Part shown: one piece after another, positions 11,067 through 38,832 of the stretch
Layout of the letters: every line of letters starts with the position of its first letter
Numbering within the stretch: position 1 is the stretch's first letter
Source: Candidatus Gastranaerophilales bacterium
GTDB taxonomy: Bacteria; Cyanobacteriota; Vampirovibrionia; Gastranaerophilales; Gastranaerophilaceae
Assembly: GCA_944323985.1 (NCBI GenBank)
Contig: CALUUP010000013.1
Coordinates: 1-41,962, forward strand
Direction of reading: 5' to 3'
Length of the DNA: 41,962 nucleotides
Notes under the pieces: generated by a model
The model's database searches: none
Seen by the model: the letters and a program-made list of their open reading frames with translations, nothing else
What the model was told of the DNA's origin: nothing
Program-made: the position numbers and the translations under genes

Positions 11067-12366
11067 GATTTTTTAAATAATTTAAAATTTCTATTAAAGT
11101 TTTTGTATTACCTAAATTTCCGGATTTAGTAATTATCCATCTTTTATTATTGTCATAACAAAGTGATATAGCAGGAGCTACCTCATCTGTTAATTTTAAT
11201 TCATTAGAATTAATCGCTTTACAACATTTATAGGAAGTTTCGCCTCCTAGTGTTATTAATATAACATTTATTTGTTCTAAAACTTTTTTCGTTAATTCAG
11301 ATAAATAATCTGTAATCATAAAAGAAAGTTTTTCTTTTGTAAGTTCTGCATTAAGTGAGTCATCTGAAAAACCGTCAAAATTTGTTATTAAATGAGATGT
11401 ATGAACTACTACTGTAACACCGCTTTTCAAATTAGTAATAATTCTTTCTGTTAAATCTTCATTAACTCCTGAAAGAATATCTTTTGTATCAAGTGGGATT
11501 ATATTTACATTATCAAAGTCATCAGATTGTTCTAATTTATCAATTTGTTCCGCAGAAATTTTTGTTGCAGAACCTGATACTATAAATTTAGGTAGTTTTT
11601 CTAGCTTTATTGAATTGTTTTCTTTTTCAATGCCAGCTAACCAATATTTAGAAAGAGCATTTGCAGCAGCAGCAGTACCGGTTGGTAAAAGCTTTTTATC
11701 ACTTTTATTTATTGCTAAAGCAATTTGTTCAATATCTGTTATAGAAGCTGAATCAACGATAATAAGTTTTTTGCCGTTATTAATTAATTCATTCATTCTA
11801 ATTAATATTGGTCCAGCTCCATTCATAACTGTCTTTAAATCAATTGTTCCAATTAATTCTTTTTGTTTATCTTCTAATTGAGAAGCTAATAATGTTGGAA
11901 TATGTGATTCTAAAATCGGAGAGTGAGGATCCATAGCAATTTCGGTTCTACCAATAGGTATTCCTTTTAATAAGTGATATCCTCCAACTGTAATACGTCC
12001 TTCTTGAGGGAATGCTGGAATTATGATAGCTGCATCATAATCTAATAATTCCAACATTGTAAGAGTTTCTATTGCAATATGCCCTCTTAATGTTGAATCA
12101 ATTTTTTTATAGTAATGATCAAAAGAAAAATTTTCCGTAAAAAATTTAACAGAATTTTCAACTTTAGAAATTGCATCCCATTTTTCTTCAACATTTCTTG
12201 ATTCTGTCGATATAGCGCAAACTTCTGTTTCGTCTTTGTTAAGTATAGGACTATTATAATCGAGTACTATTTTAGTATTAGCACCTTTTAAATGGAATTG
12301 AAGAGCAGTGTCATTTGCTCCGGTTAAATCATCTGCAACTATTCCTACAATATCAGATAATATCAT
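11056..12366 (-). CDS. Four-carbon acid sugar kinase (DUF1537 family)
   Basis: A 436-residue kinase with the two-domain DUF1537 layout. The N-terminal domain opens GIVADDLTGANDTALQF, where the Asp pair is the substrate/metal site. The C-terminal nucleotide-binding domain has SGSATKISAEQ (about 265-275) and LGGETSYKCC (about 370-380). Characterised members (DtnK, OtnK, DenK) phosphorylate D-threonate or D-/L-erythronate at C4 with ATP, feeding a PdxA2 dehydrogenase. The downstream overlapping PdxA-family gene supports that route. Its ATG shares one base with the ssb stop (TAATG), so it is translationally coupled to ssb. The exact acid sugar and stereochemistry cannot be read from sequence. Confidence 0.87.
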   Translation of the reverse strand: MILSDIVGIVADDLTGANDTALQFHLKGANTKIVLDYNSPILNKDETEVCAISTESRNVEEKWDAISKVENSVKFFTENFSFDHYYKKIDSTLRGHIAIETLTMLELLDYDAAIIIPAFPQEGRITVGGYHLLKGIPIGRTEIAMDPHSPILESHIPTLLASQLEDKQKELIGTIDLKTVMNGAGPILIRMNELINNGKKLIIVDSASITDIEQIALAINKSDKKLLPTGTAAAANALSKYWLAGIEKENNSIKLEKLPKFIVSGSATKISAEQIDKLEQSDDFDNVNIIPLDTKDILSGVNEDLTERIITNLKSGVTVVVHTSHLITNFDGFSDDSLNAELTKEKLSFMITDYLSELTKKVLEQINVILITLGGETSYKCCKAINSNELKLTDEVAPAISLCYDNNKRWIITKSGNLGNTKTLIEILNYLKNHEQ

Positions 12367-12692
12367 TATTCAGCGTCTCTTTTTGAACCTAATAATCTTA
12401 CATTATTTGCTACAATTAAGAATCTTTCTCTTTCTTCTCCGGTCTGATCAGTCCATTTGCTTATAGAAATTCTACCATCAACAACAACTTGACGACCTTT
12501 TTTTATATATTCTCCGGCAAATTCTGCTTGTTTATCCCAAACTTCGATATTATACCAATCTGTTACTTCTTCTTTAGTTTTTGAATCCCATCTATTTACG
12601 GCTAAAGAAAAATTTGTTTTTACTTTTCCTGATTCAAAATATTTTATTTCAGCATCTTGTCCTGCTCGTCCTATTATTGTTGCTGTATTCAT
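12366..12692 (-). CDS. ssb: Single-stranded DNA-binding protein, short form
   Basis: A 108-residue single OB-fold SSB. Typical segments are MNTATIIGRAGQDAEIKY at the N-terminus, TDWYNIEVWDKQAE in the middle and KKGRQVVVDGRISI. Bacterial SSBs usually have a Gly/Pro/Gln-rich linker and an acidic tip ending DDDIPF that recruits partner proteins. This one stops shortly after the fold at GSKRDAE and so lacks both. It heads an operon with the acid-sugar kinase and the PdxA-like gene, coupled through TAATG. A short SSB can be a paralogue with a special role or the normal form in this lineage; another ssb outside the window cannot be checked. The start has AGGAG nearby and a good promoter upstream. 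Confidence 0.93.
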   Translation of the reverse strand: MNTATIIGRAGQDAEIKYFESGKVKTNFSLAVNRWDSKTKEEVTDWYNIEVWDKQAEFAGEYIKKGRQVVVDGRISISKWTDQTGEERERFLIVANNVRLLGSKRDAE

Positions 12693-12848: not shown

Positions 12849-15812
12849 GTGATAACAAAAATAAGTCAATCAAATAGTATAGCATATATAAATGAAAATT
12901 TAATAAAGAATAATAAAGTGGATAAGCAACAAAAAGTTACTAATCCAGTAAATTCTTCTGTTAGTCTTATAGGTGTTCCTAGAAGTTATGTTTCTTTTAG
13001 AGGGAAGTCTACTTCTGATTTAAGTTTAAAAGATGATGCAAAAAAATTAATGTCTGTTGCAGAGAATATTGCAAAAAATATGGGACATACAGAAATTACG
13101 CCTTATCACGTTATACAGGCTGCAATAAATGAATCGGAGGAAAATCTCGCTGTTTTATCTTCACAAATTTTAGATACTGGTGTTATAGAATCAGTTTCTA
13201 CGTTGAATAAATTAGCTAATCATTATGCAAAAGAAAATATGATTTCTTCTGCAGAAAATAGAGAATATTTTATTTCTTCTTTGGAGGATTTAAATGAACA
13301 AAATACTCAGCTATTGAGTTCAATACCAAAATCTGATAAAGAAATTGATCAAAAGAAAGCTTTAGAATTTTCAGAGGATTATTTTCAATATATTGATAAA
13401 AATAAAAAAGATTTGCCAGTGATTGATTCCTATAATCTTATTGGTATTACGATAAATTATTTAACATCAAATTCTGTAATGTATACAAGTGACTTTTTGA
13501 AGGATTTTTTAACTTTAACTTATTATAAGAAAGATTCTGATATGGCTAATAATTATATGAAAGAATATAATCAAAGAGCTGTAGATGTTTGGAATAAGTT
13601 GGCTTTAGGTTCGAATTTATTTGTTACATATTCAAATGAAAAAGAAGCTGAACGTTTAGCTTCAAGTATAGTTAATACAATAAATGCTGATAAGTATGGT
13701 GATGTTAATAGTGAAAATACTGTTATATATAACTTTTCAGATAGTATAAATGCAGAGGATCTAGCTTCGCAGATATTGTCGATTAATTCGACTGTGCCTG
13801 ACAAGCAAAAGTTGTTTATGGTAAATTTGAATTCTTTACTTTTAAATTCAATTAAATCTGATAATGATCCTATTTATGGGACAGAAGTTTTAGCTTTGCC
13901 TGCTTTGTTATCAAATAAATCTCGTTTAATATTGTTTCAACATGAAAATGATAATTACGAAGCTATGAATAATCCAGTAATTAAGAAGAGTTTCAGTAAT
14001 TTTATAACTTATTCAATACCTCCTGTTAGAACTTATGAGGCAATGAACATAATAAATAATAATAAAATATTGTTAAAAAATATTAAAACGCCTTTTTCGA
14101 AAGAAGCAAGAGAAAGAGCAATATATTATTCAGATAAATTAGATGGTGTTTTGCCAGATAAAGCTGTAGATTTAATGCGAAGAATTGCATCGTATTATGG
14201 TGATAAAAAGAAAAAAATATCATTAAAAGATGTTGATGAATTTGCAAAAGTAGGCTATGAATTATTTAATGATGACGATTCAGTACAAAAAATAATTTAT
14301 AATACAGGGAAGAATTTTTCAAATTTATATGGTAAAGAGACTATAAAAAAAGATTTAGACGCAATAGCTTACCAAATAAGAAATGGAAAAATTGGGACAA
14401 AGGGAATTATTATTACTTCTAAAGATGAAGAAGCCGGTTCTGGTAGAAAATATGCTATTGAAGCTTTAGCCGGAGAAGTTAAAATTCCTTTTGTAGAAAT
14501 TAATACAACTGATTTTGCAAGAGGTGAACTGGAAGAAGATTCGAAGCAGATAACACAACCAAAGCAGGCTATGAGTAAAGTGTTTGCGAATGCCAAGAAA
14601 GCTGCAGTTCAAAATAGTTATAAATCTGCAATAATTTATATTAATAATTTTGAAGAATTTGCTTTTTCGAGTCCTTACTTACCTGGTTATAAACAAGCAA
14701 TGTTACAGTTAGAAAAAGAAATGGAAAAAGCGGAACAAGAAAATTTGAATATCATAGTAGTAGGCTCTACAAATGAATATTATGCGGATGCGATTCCAGC
14801 ATTTGTGAGAAATTTTAATCAACATTTAAGTGTTGATTCTCCTGCTTTTGATAAAAAATCAAGAAGGGATATTATAGAAAATCGTATTAGGGAAAAGAAT
14901 ATTCCTTTGTCTTATAGAACAAAAGTTGAAAAAGAGAATTTGCTTGATAAAATTGCTAAATTGTCAGAATATATGTCATTTGTGCAAATAAAAACAATGA
15001 TAGATAAGACAGAACAAATTATGATAGAACGTAATAAAAAACGTGCTTCTATTGGTGATTTTATAGAATCATATTTACAGTTAGTGACAGGAAGAACATC
15101 TCATCCTGAGATGCCGGATTATAATAAAAAGGCAACTACATCTCATGAATGTGGTCATGCTACAAATTTAGAAGTAATGACGGATTTATTAAAAAGAAAA
15201 GGTAAGCCTTGGCATTTATCAAGAGATGTAAACTTTATAACATTGGATCCAAGAGGTGATTTTTTAGGAGCTGTTTTCCAAAGAAGAACTGAAAATGCCG
15301 ATTATCCGTTTGAAGCTTTATTTACTGATTTGGTATGTTCATATGGTGGGCATTCTTGTGAAAAAATGTTTTTTGATATGGATGGTTCCAGTGGAATTTC
15401 ACAAGATCTGGCGCAAGCTACTGCGGCAGCAAAAAGGGGTATTGAGTATTTTGGTTTAGGTTTTAATACCGGCAAAATTTCTAATGCTGCTAAAATTGCT
15501 TCTGCTAAATACAACGAATCTGTATTTAAGGATATGGAAGTTATTTTAACTAATGCTCAAATCGTTTCTGATTTAATAACAGAATGTTATAAAGAGTTTA
15601 ATGAATGGTTTACGCAAAAGTATTCTAAATTGATAGGTACAGATGATTGTATGGTAGATGGAGATACTTTTAGAAAATCTTTATTCTCTTGGAAAAAAGC
15701 TTTACCTGATAGCAAAAAGCAAGAATTAGAGATTATGGATGATATGATTTTAGATGTTATAAAGGCATCTAAAAATGGTAAAATTTATTCTCAAGTAAAG
15801 AAAATTGTATAG
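12849..15812 (+). CDS. Clp_N / degenerate AAA / degenerate AAA / M41 metalloprotease fusion
   Basis: A 987-residue soluble protein starting at GTG with GGGAG upstream. Residues 48-52 read VSFRG. Residues ~60-110 look like a Clp_N repeat (GHTEITPYHVIQAA). Residues ~250-455 resemble a Clp-type AAA module ending in LPDKAVDLMRRIA, without a recognisable P-loop. Residues ~510-690 align with the FtsH AAA module, but Walker A is EEAGSGRK (527-534) instead of GPPGTGKT, Walker B has N599/N600 for D/E, the FVG pore loop is missing, and RPGRFDR is reduced to RNFNQ (654-658). The C-terminal M41 peptidase keeps H766-E-C-G-H770 and the third ligand Asp853 (SQDLAQAT). No N-terminal TM helices are seen. It is probably a zinc protease with a non-hydrolysing AAA scaffold; substrate unknown. 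Confidence 0.88.
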   Translation: MITKISQSNSIAYINENLIKNNKVDKQQKVTNPVNSSVSLIGVPRSYVSFRGKSTSDLSLKDDAKKLMSVAENIAKNMGHTEITPYHVIQAAINESEENLAVLSSQILDTGVIESVSTLNKLANHYAKENMISSAENREYFISSLEDLNEQNTQLLSSIPKSDKEIDQKKALEFSEDYFQYIDKNKKDLPVIDSYNLIGITINYLTSNSVMYTSDFLKDFLTLTYYKKDSDMANNYMKEYNQRAVDVWNKLALGSNLFVTYSNEKEAERLASSIVNTINADKYGDVNSENTVIYNFSDSINAEDLASQILSINSTVPDKQKLFMVNLNSLLLNSIKSDNDPIYGTEVLALPALLSNKSRLILFQHENDNYEAMNNPVIKKSFSNFITYSIPPVRTYEAMNIINNNKILLKNIKTPFSKEARERAIYYSDKLDGVLPDKAVDLMRRIASYYGDKKKKISLKDVDEFAKVGYELFNDDDSVQKIIYNTGKNFSNLYGKETIKKDLDAIAYQIRNGKIGTKGIIITSKDEEAGSGRKYAIEALAGEVKIPFVEINTTDFARGELEEDSKQITQPKQAMSKVFANAKKAAVQNSYKSAIIYINNFEEFAFSSPYLPGYKQAMLQLEKEMEKAEQENLNIIVVGSTNEYYADAIPAFVRNFNQHLSVDSPAFDKKSRRDIIENRIREKNIPLSYRTKVEKENLLDKIAKLSEYMSFVQIKTMIDKTEQIMIERNKKRASIGDFIESYLQLVTGRTSHPEMPDYNKKATTSHECGHATNLEVMTDLLKRKGKPWHLSRDVNFITLDPRGDFLGAVFQRRTENADYPFEALFTDLVCSYGGHSCEKMFFDMDGSSGISQDLAQATAAAKRGIEYFGLGFNTGKISNAAKIASAKYNESVFKDMEVILTNAQIVSDLITECYKEFNEWFTQKYSKLIGTDDCMVDGDTFRKSLFSWKKALPDSKKQELEIMDDMILDVIKASKNGKIYSQVKKIV

Positions 15813-15886: not shown

Positions 15887-16993
15887 TTATTTTTTAGTTT
15901 GCTCTTTTACAGGTTCTGTTTTAATTTTCAAGTTGTTTTTTGGATTAAAATTTTCATTTAAATATTCAATTTTAGCAGATTTCATTAATCCATCTGTTAA
16001 ATTTTTTAGAACTTCTATTTGTTTTTGAGTCTCTAAATAAAATTTGATTTCATCTTTGACTTTCACAAATGGTGTTGTGCCAGCCTCCATTCTATCTGTT
16101 ACTTTTATAATATGGAAACCATAAGGAGATTTGACTAGTGTTTCGCTTATTGTATTAGGTTTCATTGAAAAAGCTGCATTTGCAAATTCTGGAACCATTG
16201 CTTCTTTTGGGAAGAATCCTAGCTCTCCACCTCTTTCTCCGCTGGCTTTATCATCTGATTTTTTTTGAGCTATTTTTTCAAAATTATCTGGATTTTGCTT
16301 TACTTCTGCTAAAATAGACTCGGCTTTAGCTTTTTGTTCTGCGATTTTTTCATCTACTTTTGTATTTAAATCGGTTGGATTTAAGTTTGGATTTTTTTCT
16401 TTTATTTGTTGTATTAATTCTATTGTGTTTGCAGATATTAATATGTGTGATGCTCTTACTTGCTCTCCGTGTGTAAATTCGTTTTTATGTGTATTATAGT
16501 ATTTTTCTGCATCCTTGTCTGTTATATTTATTTTTTCAATTGAATTAACTAATTTTTTAATTCTGATTTGAGTTTTTAAATCTTCTGTAAATTGCTGGTT
16601 AGTAATTTCTCTCTGTTTTAGTATTTTATTTAGTTCTTCTTTTGAACCTACTTTGTCTATTATTGACTTTAATTCTGCTTGTACGTCGTCTTGGCTGACT
16701 GTTATTTTTCTTTTAGCAATTTCTTCATCTAGGAGGGTTTTTACGATTAATTCGTTTGTAACCTTGTCTTTAAAAATATTGTATATAGGGTTTTTTTCGT
16801 CTTTTAGGAAATTTTTAGAGCCTCCGAATGATTTTAAGAATGATTTGTCAACACTTTTATCAAATGCTTTATCGAAATCTTGTTGCGTAATAATCGTATC
16901 ATTAACTTTTACTATTCCTTCTGATTTATTGATAAGATTACATCCCGATAATAAAACACTTGATAGTGCCAAACATACTAATATTTTTTTCAT
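15887..16993 (-). CDS. prsA: PrsA/SurA-like parvulin peptidyl-prolyl isomerase, lipoprotein
   Basis: A 368-residue extracytoplasmic foldase. The N-terminus is a lipoprotein signal peptide with lipobox LLSGC (Cys18), followed by Asn19, so it should be lipid-anchored to a membrane. Residues ~30-165 form a helical SurA_N-like chaperone region. The parvulin domain (about 175-310) includes VRASHILI, then GGELGFFPKEAMVPEFANA and SPYGFHIIKV, all standard for PpiC enzymes, with a charged helical insertion (about 195-235). The tail is Lys/Glu-rich. The start has GAGGAG upstream. Such proteins help exported proteins fold. It stands alone on the minus strand between two plus-strand genes. PrsA and SurA/PpiD differ mainly by anchoring; the lipobox favours PrsA. 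Confidence 0.92.
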   Translation of the reverse strand: MKKILVCLALSSVLLSGCNLINKSEGIVKVNDTIITQQDFDKAFDKSVDKSFLKSFGGSKNFLKDEKNPIYNIFKDKVTNELIVKTLLDEEIAKRKITVSQDDVQAELKSIIDKVGSKEELNKILKQREITNQQFTEDLKTQIRIKKLVNSIEKINITDKDAEKYYNTHKNEFTHGEQVRASHILISANTIELIQQIKEKNPNLNPTDLNTKVDEKIAEQKAKAESILAEVKQNPDNFEKIAQKKSDDKASGERGGELGFFPKEAMVPEFANAAFSMKPNTISETLVKSPYGFHIIKVTDRMEAGTTPFVKVKDEIKFYLETQKQIEVLKNLTDGLMKSAKIEYLNENFNPKNNLKIKTEPVKEQTKK

Positions 16994-37400: not shown

Positions 37401-38042
37401 ATGTTATTAAGAGCATTAAAAAAAATAAAAGAGGATATAAAGGTTATTTATGACAAGGATCCTGCTGCGAATAATATTTTAGAAGTTTTGTTTTGTTATC
37501 CTGGTTTACAGGCTCTTATATCTCATAGAATAGCTCATAAGCTTGCTTACTGGAAAATCCCATTTATTCCAAGATTAATTTCCTATTGGACGAGAATTTT
37601 TACAGGAATTGAAATTCATCCAAAAGCTAGGATTGGAAATAGGTTCTTTATAGACCACGGAGAAGGGGTTGTAATTGGTGAGACTACAATTATTGGTGAT
37701 GATGTTCTTATTTATCAACAAGTGACATTAGGAGGAACTGGTAATGAGCATGGTAAACGTCATCCGACCATTGGTAATAATGTAATTATAGGTGCTGGGG
37801 CAAAAATTCTAGGTAATATTACAATAGGTGATAATACAAGAATAGGAGCAGGTTCAGTTGTTGTAGATAATGTCCCAGAACACTGTACTGTTGTAGGGAT
37901 TCCCGGTAGAATTGTACAACAAAAATTTGTAAATCATGAAGGAATTTTAATGCACAATAGAATTCCTGATCCCATAAAATGTGAACTTAATCGTATGAAA
38001 TACGAACTTCAAGATTTAAAAGAAAAAGTTGAAAAACTTTAA
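37401..38042 (+). CDS. cysE: Serine O-acetyltransferase
   Basis: A 213-residue hexapeptide-repeat acetyltransferase that makes O-acetylserine from serine and acetyl-CoA. The helical N-terminal part (1-60) includes YPGLQALISHRIAHKL, and the left-handed beta-helix (about 70-170) shows IHPKARIGNRFFIDHGEGVVIGE with the catalytic Asp-His (DHGEG) and IYQQVTLGGTG. The C-terminal tail is helical rather than ending in the usual Ile-rich feedback segment. It is the short type seen in many non-enteric bacteria. AGGAG precedes the ATG. It lies downstream of cysK, so the cysteine synthase complex partners are encoded together. Confidence 0.95.
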   Translation: MLLRALKKIKEDIKVIYDKDPAANNILEVLFCYPGLQALISHRIAHKLAYWKIPFIPRLISYWTRIFTGIEIHPKARIGNRFFIDHGEGVVIGETTIIGDDVLIYQQVTLGGTGNEHGKRHPTIGNNVIIGAGAKILGNITIGDNTRIGAGSVVVDNVPEHCTVVGIPGRIVQQKFVNHEGILMHNRIPDPIKCELNRMKYELQDLKEKVEKL

Positions 38043-38130
38043 GTTTTGTAAATTTTTTACTTTTATTTTAGCAATTAGATTTGTTTATAAACATTATCGT
38101 ATATGTGTAGTAAAAGGAAAGGTTTTATAT

Positions 38131-38832
38131 ATGAGTTTAGCTGTTAACCCCGTTGTTAATCAAATTAATAATCAAGCGACTTTTAAAGGTAAATGGGAGA
38201 AAACAGATAATGGGACCCCCTATTATAAATCAAATTCTGCAACAATTGCCGGCGGAGTAATGGCTATTCCAGCAGCGTTGACTTGGCTTGTTAATATAAA
38301 TAAAAAAGATTTAGCTCAAGATAAAAATATAGAAGAAGTGACTAAAAACCCAGAAATGAAAAAACAAGCAGACTCTTTTCTTAAAATGTTTGGAATAGAA
38401 AATTCTTTTGAAGAAGTTTTAAAAGAGGAAAATAAAAGAAATCAGCGATTAAAAAAATATGCAATACCTTTTACTATAATAGCCTCCGGTTTAACTCTTG
38501 GATGTGGGATTTTGGTTGATCATTTAAGAAACAAAAAAGCTCAAGAAACAGCTGAACAGGTAAGACAAATAGGGTTAAAGAGAACTTTAATTGCGCAAGA
38601 TAGAGTTGCTATTTCTAATAAAGGAAGAGCTTATTATGAATCAAATCAAGGGCATAAGTGGGGGGCTTTATTAGGTGCTGGCTGCGGTATTGCTGCAACT
38701 CTAATGAAAAATGGAAAAAAAACTAACTTTGCACATATACTTACCGGTGCTGCAACTTATGCTTTTGGTGGTTGGATAATGGGAGTTATAGCTGATCATA
38801 ATACCAACAAAAATGCACGAATTCATTCATAA
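38131..38832 (+). CDS. Hypothetical membrane protein with N-terminal FKG tag
   Basis: A 233-residue protein using the ATG at 38131 with AAAGGAAAGG upstream; the reading frame is open further left into cysE, but that extension is basic, atypical and lacks a site. The N-terminus MSLAVNPVVNQINNQATFKG contains an FKG tag like the VSFRG of the M41 fusion. About four hydrophobic segments follow (about 35-60, 108-130, 180-200 and 205-225), Gly/Ala-rich, interrupted by charged helices. There are no catalytic motifs. It is followed by a strong terminator and is probably co-transcribed with cysE. I do not recognise it outside the presumed lineage. Confidence 0.75.
   Translation: MSLAVNPVVNQINNQATFKGKWEKTDNGTPYYKSNSATIAGGVMAIPAALTWLVNINKKDLAQDKNIEEVTKNPEMKKQADSFLKMFGIENSFEEVLKEENKRNQRLKKYAIPFTIIASGLTLGCGILVDHLRNKKAQETAEQVRQIGLKRTLIAQDRVAISNKGRAYYESNQGHKWGALLGAGCGIAATLMKNGKKTNFAHILTGAATYAFGGWIMGVIADHNTNKNARIHS

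Follow-up and report, generated by a model that had tools for sequence, protein, structure and literature searches.

Unfolding driven by ATP is the defining trait of AAA+ proteases. Can a protease built on this plan persist once its ATPase is lost? The question is raised by a gene in a 41,962-nucleotide stretch of contig CALUUP010000013.1 from Candidatus Gastranaerophilales bacterium (hereafter, the window), in which an intact M41 zinc site follows two AAA modules stripped of their hydrolysis motifs. The source genome is a 1.86-Mb assembly of 97% completeness. Among named genomes it is closest to Candidatus Gastranaerophilales MAGs, and elsewhere it encodes a canonical 644-aa FtsH. Homologues were gathered from the named genome contigs and from 286 genomes of the order, and were read from fetched stretches. 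Motif counts are based on 72 full-length homologues, all distinct, that come from many Gastranaerophilales genera.

An intact zinc site beside an altered ATPase

The gene is a single open frame (12849-15812, + strand) with a GTG start and a product of 987 aa (Table 1). Pfam M41 matches residues 756-928 (6.3e-14, 52.7 bits against a cut-off of 29.9) and was matched by all 34 family members scanned at E 0.001. A preliminary description of this DNA had proposed a complete zinc site, and H766-E-C-G-H770 and D853 are both found. Pfam AAA matches residues 530-660 above its gathering score (2.6e-8). The same description considered the FtsH-like ATPase ruined. In agreement with this, E527-E-A-G-S-G-R-K534 occupies the Walker A place and N599-N600 that of Walker B, RNFNQ stands where RPGRFDR is expected, and the FVG pore loop is absent. 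The FtsH model TIGR01241 is matched at 4e-21 with 75.3 bits, far under its equivalog cut-off of 600 bits. No transmembrane segment was found in the window protein, as had been claimed: the maximum 19-residue hydropathy is 1.0, compared with 2.7 in the genome's own FtsH. Across the 72 members, hydropathy exceeds 1.6 in just one, close to its predicted N-terminus.

Table 1 Features of the protease gene and of the genes on either side of it, with positions in the window
Feature	Position	Strand	Basis
ssb, flanking gene	12366-12692	-	Pfam SSB
Leader, residues 1-58, low-complexity, YVSFRG at its end	12849-13022	+	Family comparison
Clp_N-like half repeat, ~residues 62-115	13032-13193	+	Family profile against PDB; fold matches
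Degenerate ClpA/B/C-type D1 AAA module, residues 234-473, without P-loop	13548-14267	+	Fold, motif
Degenerate FtsH-type AAA module, residues 482-746	14292-15086	+	Pfam AAA, fold
Ruined Walker A EEAGSGRK, residues 527-534, Lys replaced by Arg533	14427-14450	+	Motif across family
Ruined Walker B, Asn599-Asn600 for Asp-Glu	14643-14648	+	Motif across family
Peptidase M41 domain, ~residues 753-930, zinc site intact	15105-15638	+	Pfam M41
Zinc-binding HECGH, residues 766-770	15144-15158	+	HExxH across family
Third zinc ligand Asp853	15405-15407	+	Asp across family
C-terminal tail (Cys934, Trp948) and stop codon	15639-15812	+	Family conservation
SurA-like PPIase lipoprotein, opposite flank	15887-16993	-	Pfam Rotamase_3, SurA_N_3

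The N-terminal half resembles Clp proteins

On the single window sequence, Pfam Clp_N scores below threshold (13 against 20.7 bits), so the Clp_N and ClpA/B-D1 assignments depend on profile searches and fold prediction. When 53 homologues were combined into a profile and searched against the PDB, ClpC was matched at E 8.7e-10, both in its Clp_N repeats and in its D1 lid, and AAA_lid_9 gives weak matches in 8 of 53 members. The Clp_N-like N-terminus of the preliminary description is supported by family profile and fold matches, with the single-sequence Pfam score below its cut-off. An AF2 model of residues 52-490 was built from an alignment of 9 sequences (pLDDT 75, pTM 0.49). Its best 40 Foldseek matches are all ClpC, ClpA, ClpB or Hsp104 chains, and VIA-align superimposes the D1 module on ClpA D1 (7uiz) with a Z of 13.3 and an rmsd of 3.7 over 221 residues, as expected for the ClpA/B-style first AAA segment that had been suggested. 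The predicted model places a D1 AAA fold with an AAA_lid_9-type lid in the window protein. Profile similarity to Clp_N, D1 and AAA is therefore present outside the M41 domain. Elsewhere in the genome, a 449-aa open frame (G000:C10:49148-50425) carries five Clp_N matches in a tandem array.

The FtsH-type AAA module, in an AF2 model, matches the FtsH ATPase fold 1iy0 (Z 18.2, rmsd 3.3 over 229 residues). In the predicted models, the FtsH and ClpA folds are thus both kept despite dead nucleotide sites. The AF2 model of the whole protein (9 sequences, pTM 0.29) renders M41 poorly, and its inter-domain geometry is too poor for use. Because the models are this shallow (9 sequences), we infer a ring rather than read one from them.

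Loss of the ATPase and retention of the protease across the family

The altered state is shared by the whole family. The Walker A Lys position is Arg in 72/72 members and Lys in 14/14 relatives, HExxH and the third zinc ligand Asp are each present in 72/72, and these counts represent one loss and its retention rather than 72 events because the dead clade has a single origin. The Walker A Thr is kept by a single member of the 72, with a basic residue in most, and the catalytic Walker B Glu by none (N in 65, K in 5, H in 2). At the pore-loop Phe, Glu or Asp is found in the majority of the 72, and the second SRH Arg is retained in 3/72. A motif search recovered a P-loop in the D1 module of 0/72 members. 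In the C-terminal tail, Cys934 is kept in 99% and Trp948 in 100% of the members.

Whole-gene dN/dS is 0.05-0.16 in 14 pairs. By domain, it is ~0-0.13 for the dead FtsH-type AAA module and 0.04-0.19 for M41; the leader evolves fast, with values up to ~0.7 in comparisons with the window. The two domains are equally conserved, with mean column entropies of 1.58 bits (dead AAA) and 1.59 bits (M41). At the level of sequence, these comparisons show that the M41 catalytic site is under strict purifying selection while both AAA modules lost their hydrolysis elements.

Relatives with a live ATPase

In a tree of AAA-M41 regions, all dead members group together in a single clade (SH-aLRT 100), nested among soluble relatives and apart from canonical FtsH. 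Three of these relatives (L080, L081 and L084) combine a similar leader and a D1-like module without a P-loop (profile E 1e-20 to 1e-11) with a live FtsH-type AAA. Two more are half-decayed: L082 and L088 have GSGKT and a FIDD-type DD at Walker B, lack the pore loop and the Arg finger, and are placed beside the dead clade in the tree (support 87). The live-ATPase relatives and the two intermediates together give the direction of change. From these few sequences, the decay would have begun with D1, continued with the pore loop and Arg fingers, and ended with the Walker motifs.

Other soluble relatives (L085-L087 and L089-L093, 725-778 aa) have a different N-domain with a live FtsH-type AAA and M41; several of them share a genome with a dead-ATPase copy. 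Copies in two genus-mates, L059 (G259) and L057 (G268), are ~34% identical to that of the window. The tree places L059 among copies from other genera, a position suggestive of horizontal transfer or replacement.

Distribution and genomic context

At E 1e-60, the full-length family was detected in 67 of 289 genomes of the class, a few of them through live-ATPase relatives alone and all from an uneven genome sampling. Its occurrence is patchy inside genera. When the full-length profile was run against the phylum and the class, the matches listed from outside Gastranaerophilales were just FtsH of canonical length.

In five genus-mates without the gene (L226, L227, L230, L232 and L234), ssb adjoins the SurA-like PPIase gene. 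This clean empty site indicates that the gene was gained or lost alone. Clustering of the flanks of 73 loci found no conserved neighbour beyond genus-level housekeeping synteny. Single-gene gain or loss and the lack of a conserved neighbour both speak against an operon partner on which the gene would depend.

A putative ATP-independent zinc protease

The reading that we prefer, with a probability of about 0.5, is that the protein arose from an AAA+ protease and acts as a soluble zinc endopeptidase that needs no ATP, its dead AAA modules kept as a ring scaffold and gate. At the same even odds, the lineage switched off both ATPase rings, which then remained as a conserved pseudo-ATPase framework supporting a compartmental zinc protease that works without ATP. 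The sequences show that a gene combining a ClpA/B/C-type D1 with an FtsH-type AAA-M41 lost every hydrolysis element in both AAA modules. The retained modules would still assemble a ring and gate the M41 chamber, with a substrate or an adaptor captured by the Clp_N-like head. Protein unfolding is not expected on this reading, since the pore-loop aromatic is missing and ATP would not be used. The substrates would be tails that are already flexible or partially unfolded proteins, cleaved probably in the cytosol. For the window protein itself, we infer M41 protease activity, assembly and a cytosolic location. Among the functions offered by the preliminary description, an ATP-independent protease fits best, a nucleotide sensor is possible and nothing directly supports a secreted effector.

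Unfolding could instead be supplied from outside by a division of labor, in which the window protein is the protease of a mixed ring or stacked complex that a second, live AAA protein drives. Plant FtsH12/FtsHi complexes do mix subunits whose protease site works with others in which it does not (PMC8197885). Candidate motors include P0002, which shares the leader, and a canonical FtsH or ClpC; we consider the arrangement, with either kind of motor, unlikely. P0002 (L132, G000:C4:4228-5745) is a live AAA-only protein of 506 aa with no protease and a similar leader, encoded in the genome of the window. Among genomes that carry the dead family, 48 of 87 encode P0002, as do 60 of 199 among those that lack the family (odds ratio 2.9, uncorrected for relatedness). 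P0002 is absent at E 1e-60 from the other 39 of the 87 carrier genomes, and no conserved neighbor lies beside the protease gene. This co-occurrence is too loose for an obligate partner; P0002 is a possible motor, not an obligate one.

Equally doubtful is a nucleotide or metabolite sensor, in which the altered pocket (GxGR, with Asn for the Walker B Glu) would bind a ligand without hydrolysing it and so switch the protease. G530, G532 and Arg533 are invariant and 90% of members have Asn in place of the Walker B Glu, so the pocket looks fixed in a new form rather than drifting. Set against a sensor, the Walker A Thr position is basic in most members, sensor 1 and the Arg-finger positions drift more than the pocket residues, as does the pore loop, and a ligand for the altered pocket is not known.

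Less probable still is an exported effector or a surface protease directed by the leader. Leaders of this 'SFxG' type occur on nearly all family members. The genome also encodes unrelated proteins with similar leaders, among them an amylase-like protein, and an ART-PolyVal-like protein adjoining one family member has such a leader too. The leader is also present on helicase, HD and AAA proteins of cytosolic appearance, however, the window protein has no recognised signal peptide, transmembrane segment or hydrophobic signal-like stretch, and secretion genes were not recognised beside the gene.

Further observations concern the leader itself. In 838 kb of this genome, the pattern M[KR]I..I...[SNT]F[KRST][GA] picks out about ten otherwise unrelated open reading frames that look genuine by eye, and loose matches number 18 in 674 ORFs against 5 in 1467 internal windows. 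Such leaders may serve for sorting or processing in a way peculiar to the order. Leader-bearing frames lie at L130:7602, L132:4225, L138:6318, L138:7221, L179:8553, L183:13251, L185:6001 and L190:2957, and at 38029-38832 in the window. The ART-PolyVal-like protein (L066:1112-1906) has an NFKG leader and matches at 1.3e-5, below the cut-off.

A decaying pseudogene or lineage-specific wreck, which the ruin of all ATPase motifs in the window copy might suggest, is ruled out by the same ruined state in 72 distinct homologues with full-length frames and by a dN/dS far under 1 in each structured domain; no full-length orthologue has a P-loop and HExxH is conserved, contrary to what the decay of a single copy would predict.

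Relation to known proteases

The window protein resembles FtsH in having an FtsH-type AAA fold followed by M41 with HExxH and Asp. In contrast to FtsH, it lacks a membrane anchor, its ATPase is dead, and Clp_N-like and D1 modules are added. The Walker A and Walker B motifs, the SRH arginines and the FVG pore loop of FtsH are all altered across the family, and the elements that a review gives as typical of FtsH are those missing here (PMC9020784). With ClpA, ClpB and ClpC (HSP100), the protein shares the D1 fold and the D1 lid, and its head is Clp_N-like by family profile and fold matches. Unlike theirs, its D1 has no P-loop, and its second module is FtsH-type in sequence and fold, with its own protease, instead of a Clp D2.

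The preliminary description stated that known FtsH variants usually lose the protease and keep the ATPase. This holds for the plant FtsHi pseudo-proteases, which have lost the zinc site and kept the AAA (PMC8197885). They too are FtsH relatives that lost one of two activities while the gene was retained, although the loss is the reverse: the window family keeps the zinc site and loses the AAA activity. VIRESCENT3 (VIR3) of the Arabidopsis chloroplast, in contrast, is described as a member of a metalloprotease superfamily with HEAGH and without an ATP-binding domain (PMC9166295). As described, VIR3 sets a precedent for proteases of this type that work without ATP, and the window family differs from it in keeping two dead AAA folds under purifying selection. 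A live M41 joined to dead but conserved AAA rings was not described in the open-licence papers searched, and the window family was not found in such papers on M41 with an inactive ATPase, Gastranaerophilales proteases or Melainabacteria FtsH.

The window family is a mirror image of the plant FtsHi pseudo-proteases. If the preferred reading of an ATP-independent protease is true, the family would test the roles of the ring (assembly, gating and substrate capture) apart from the use of ATP. Relatives with live motors and intermediates persist within the same bacterial order, and the live and half-decayed forms would constitute a natural series from an ATP-dependent to an ATP-independent protease.
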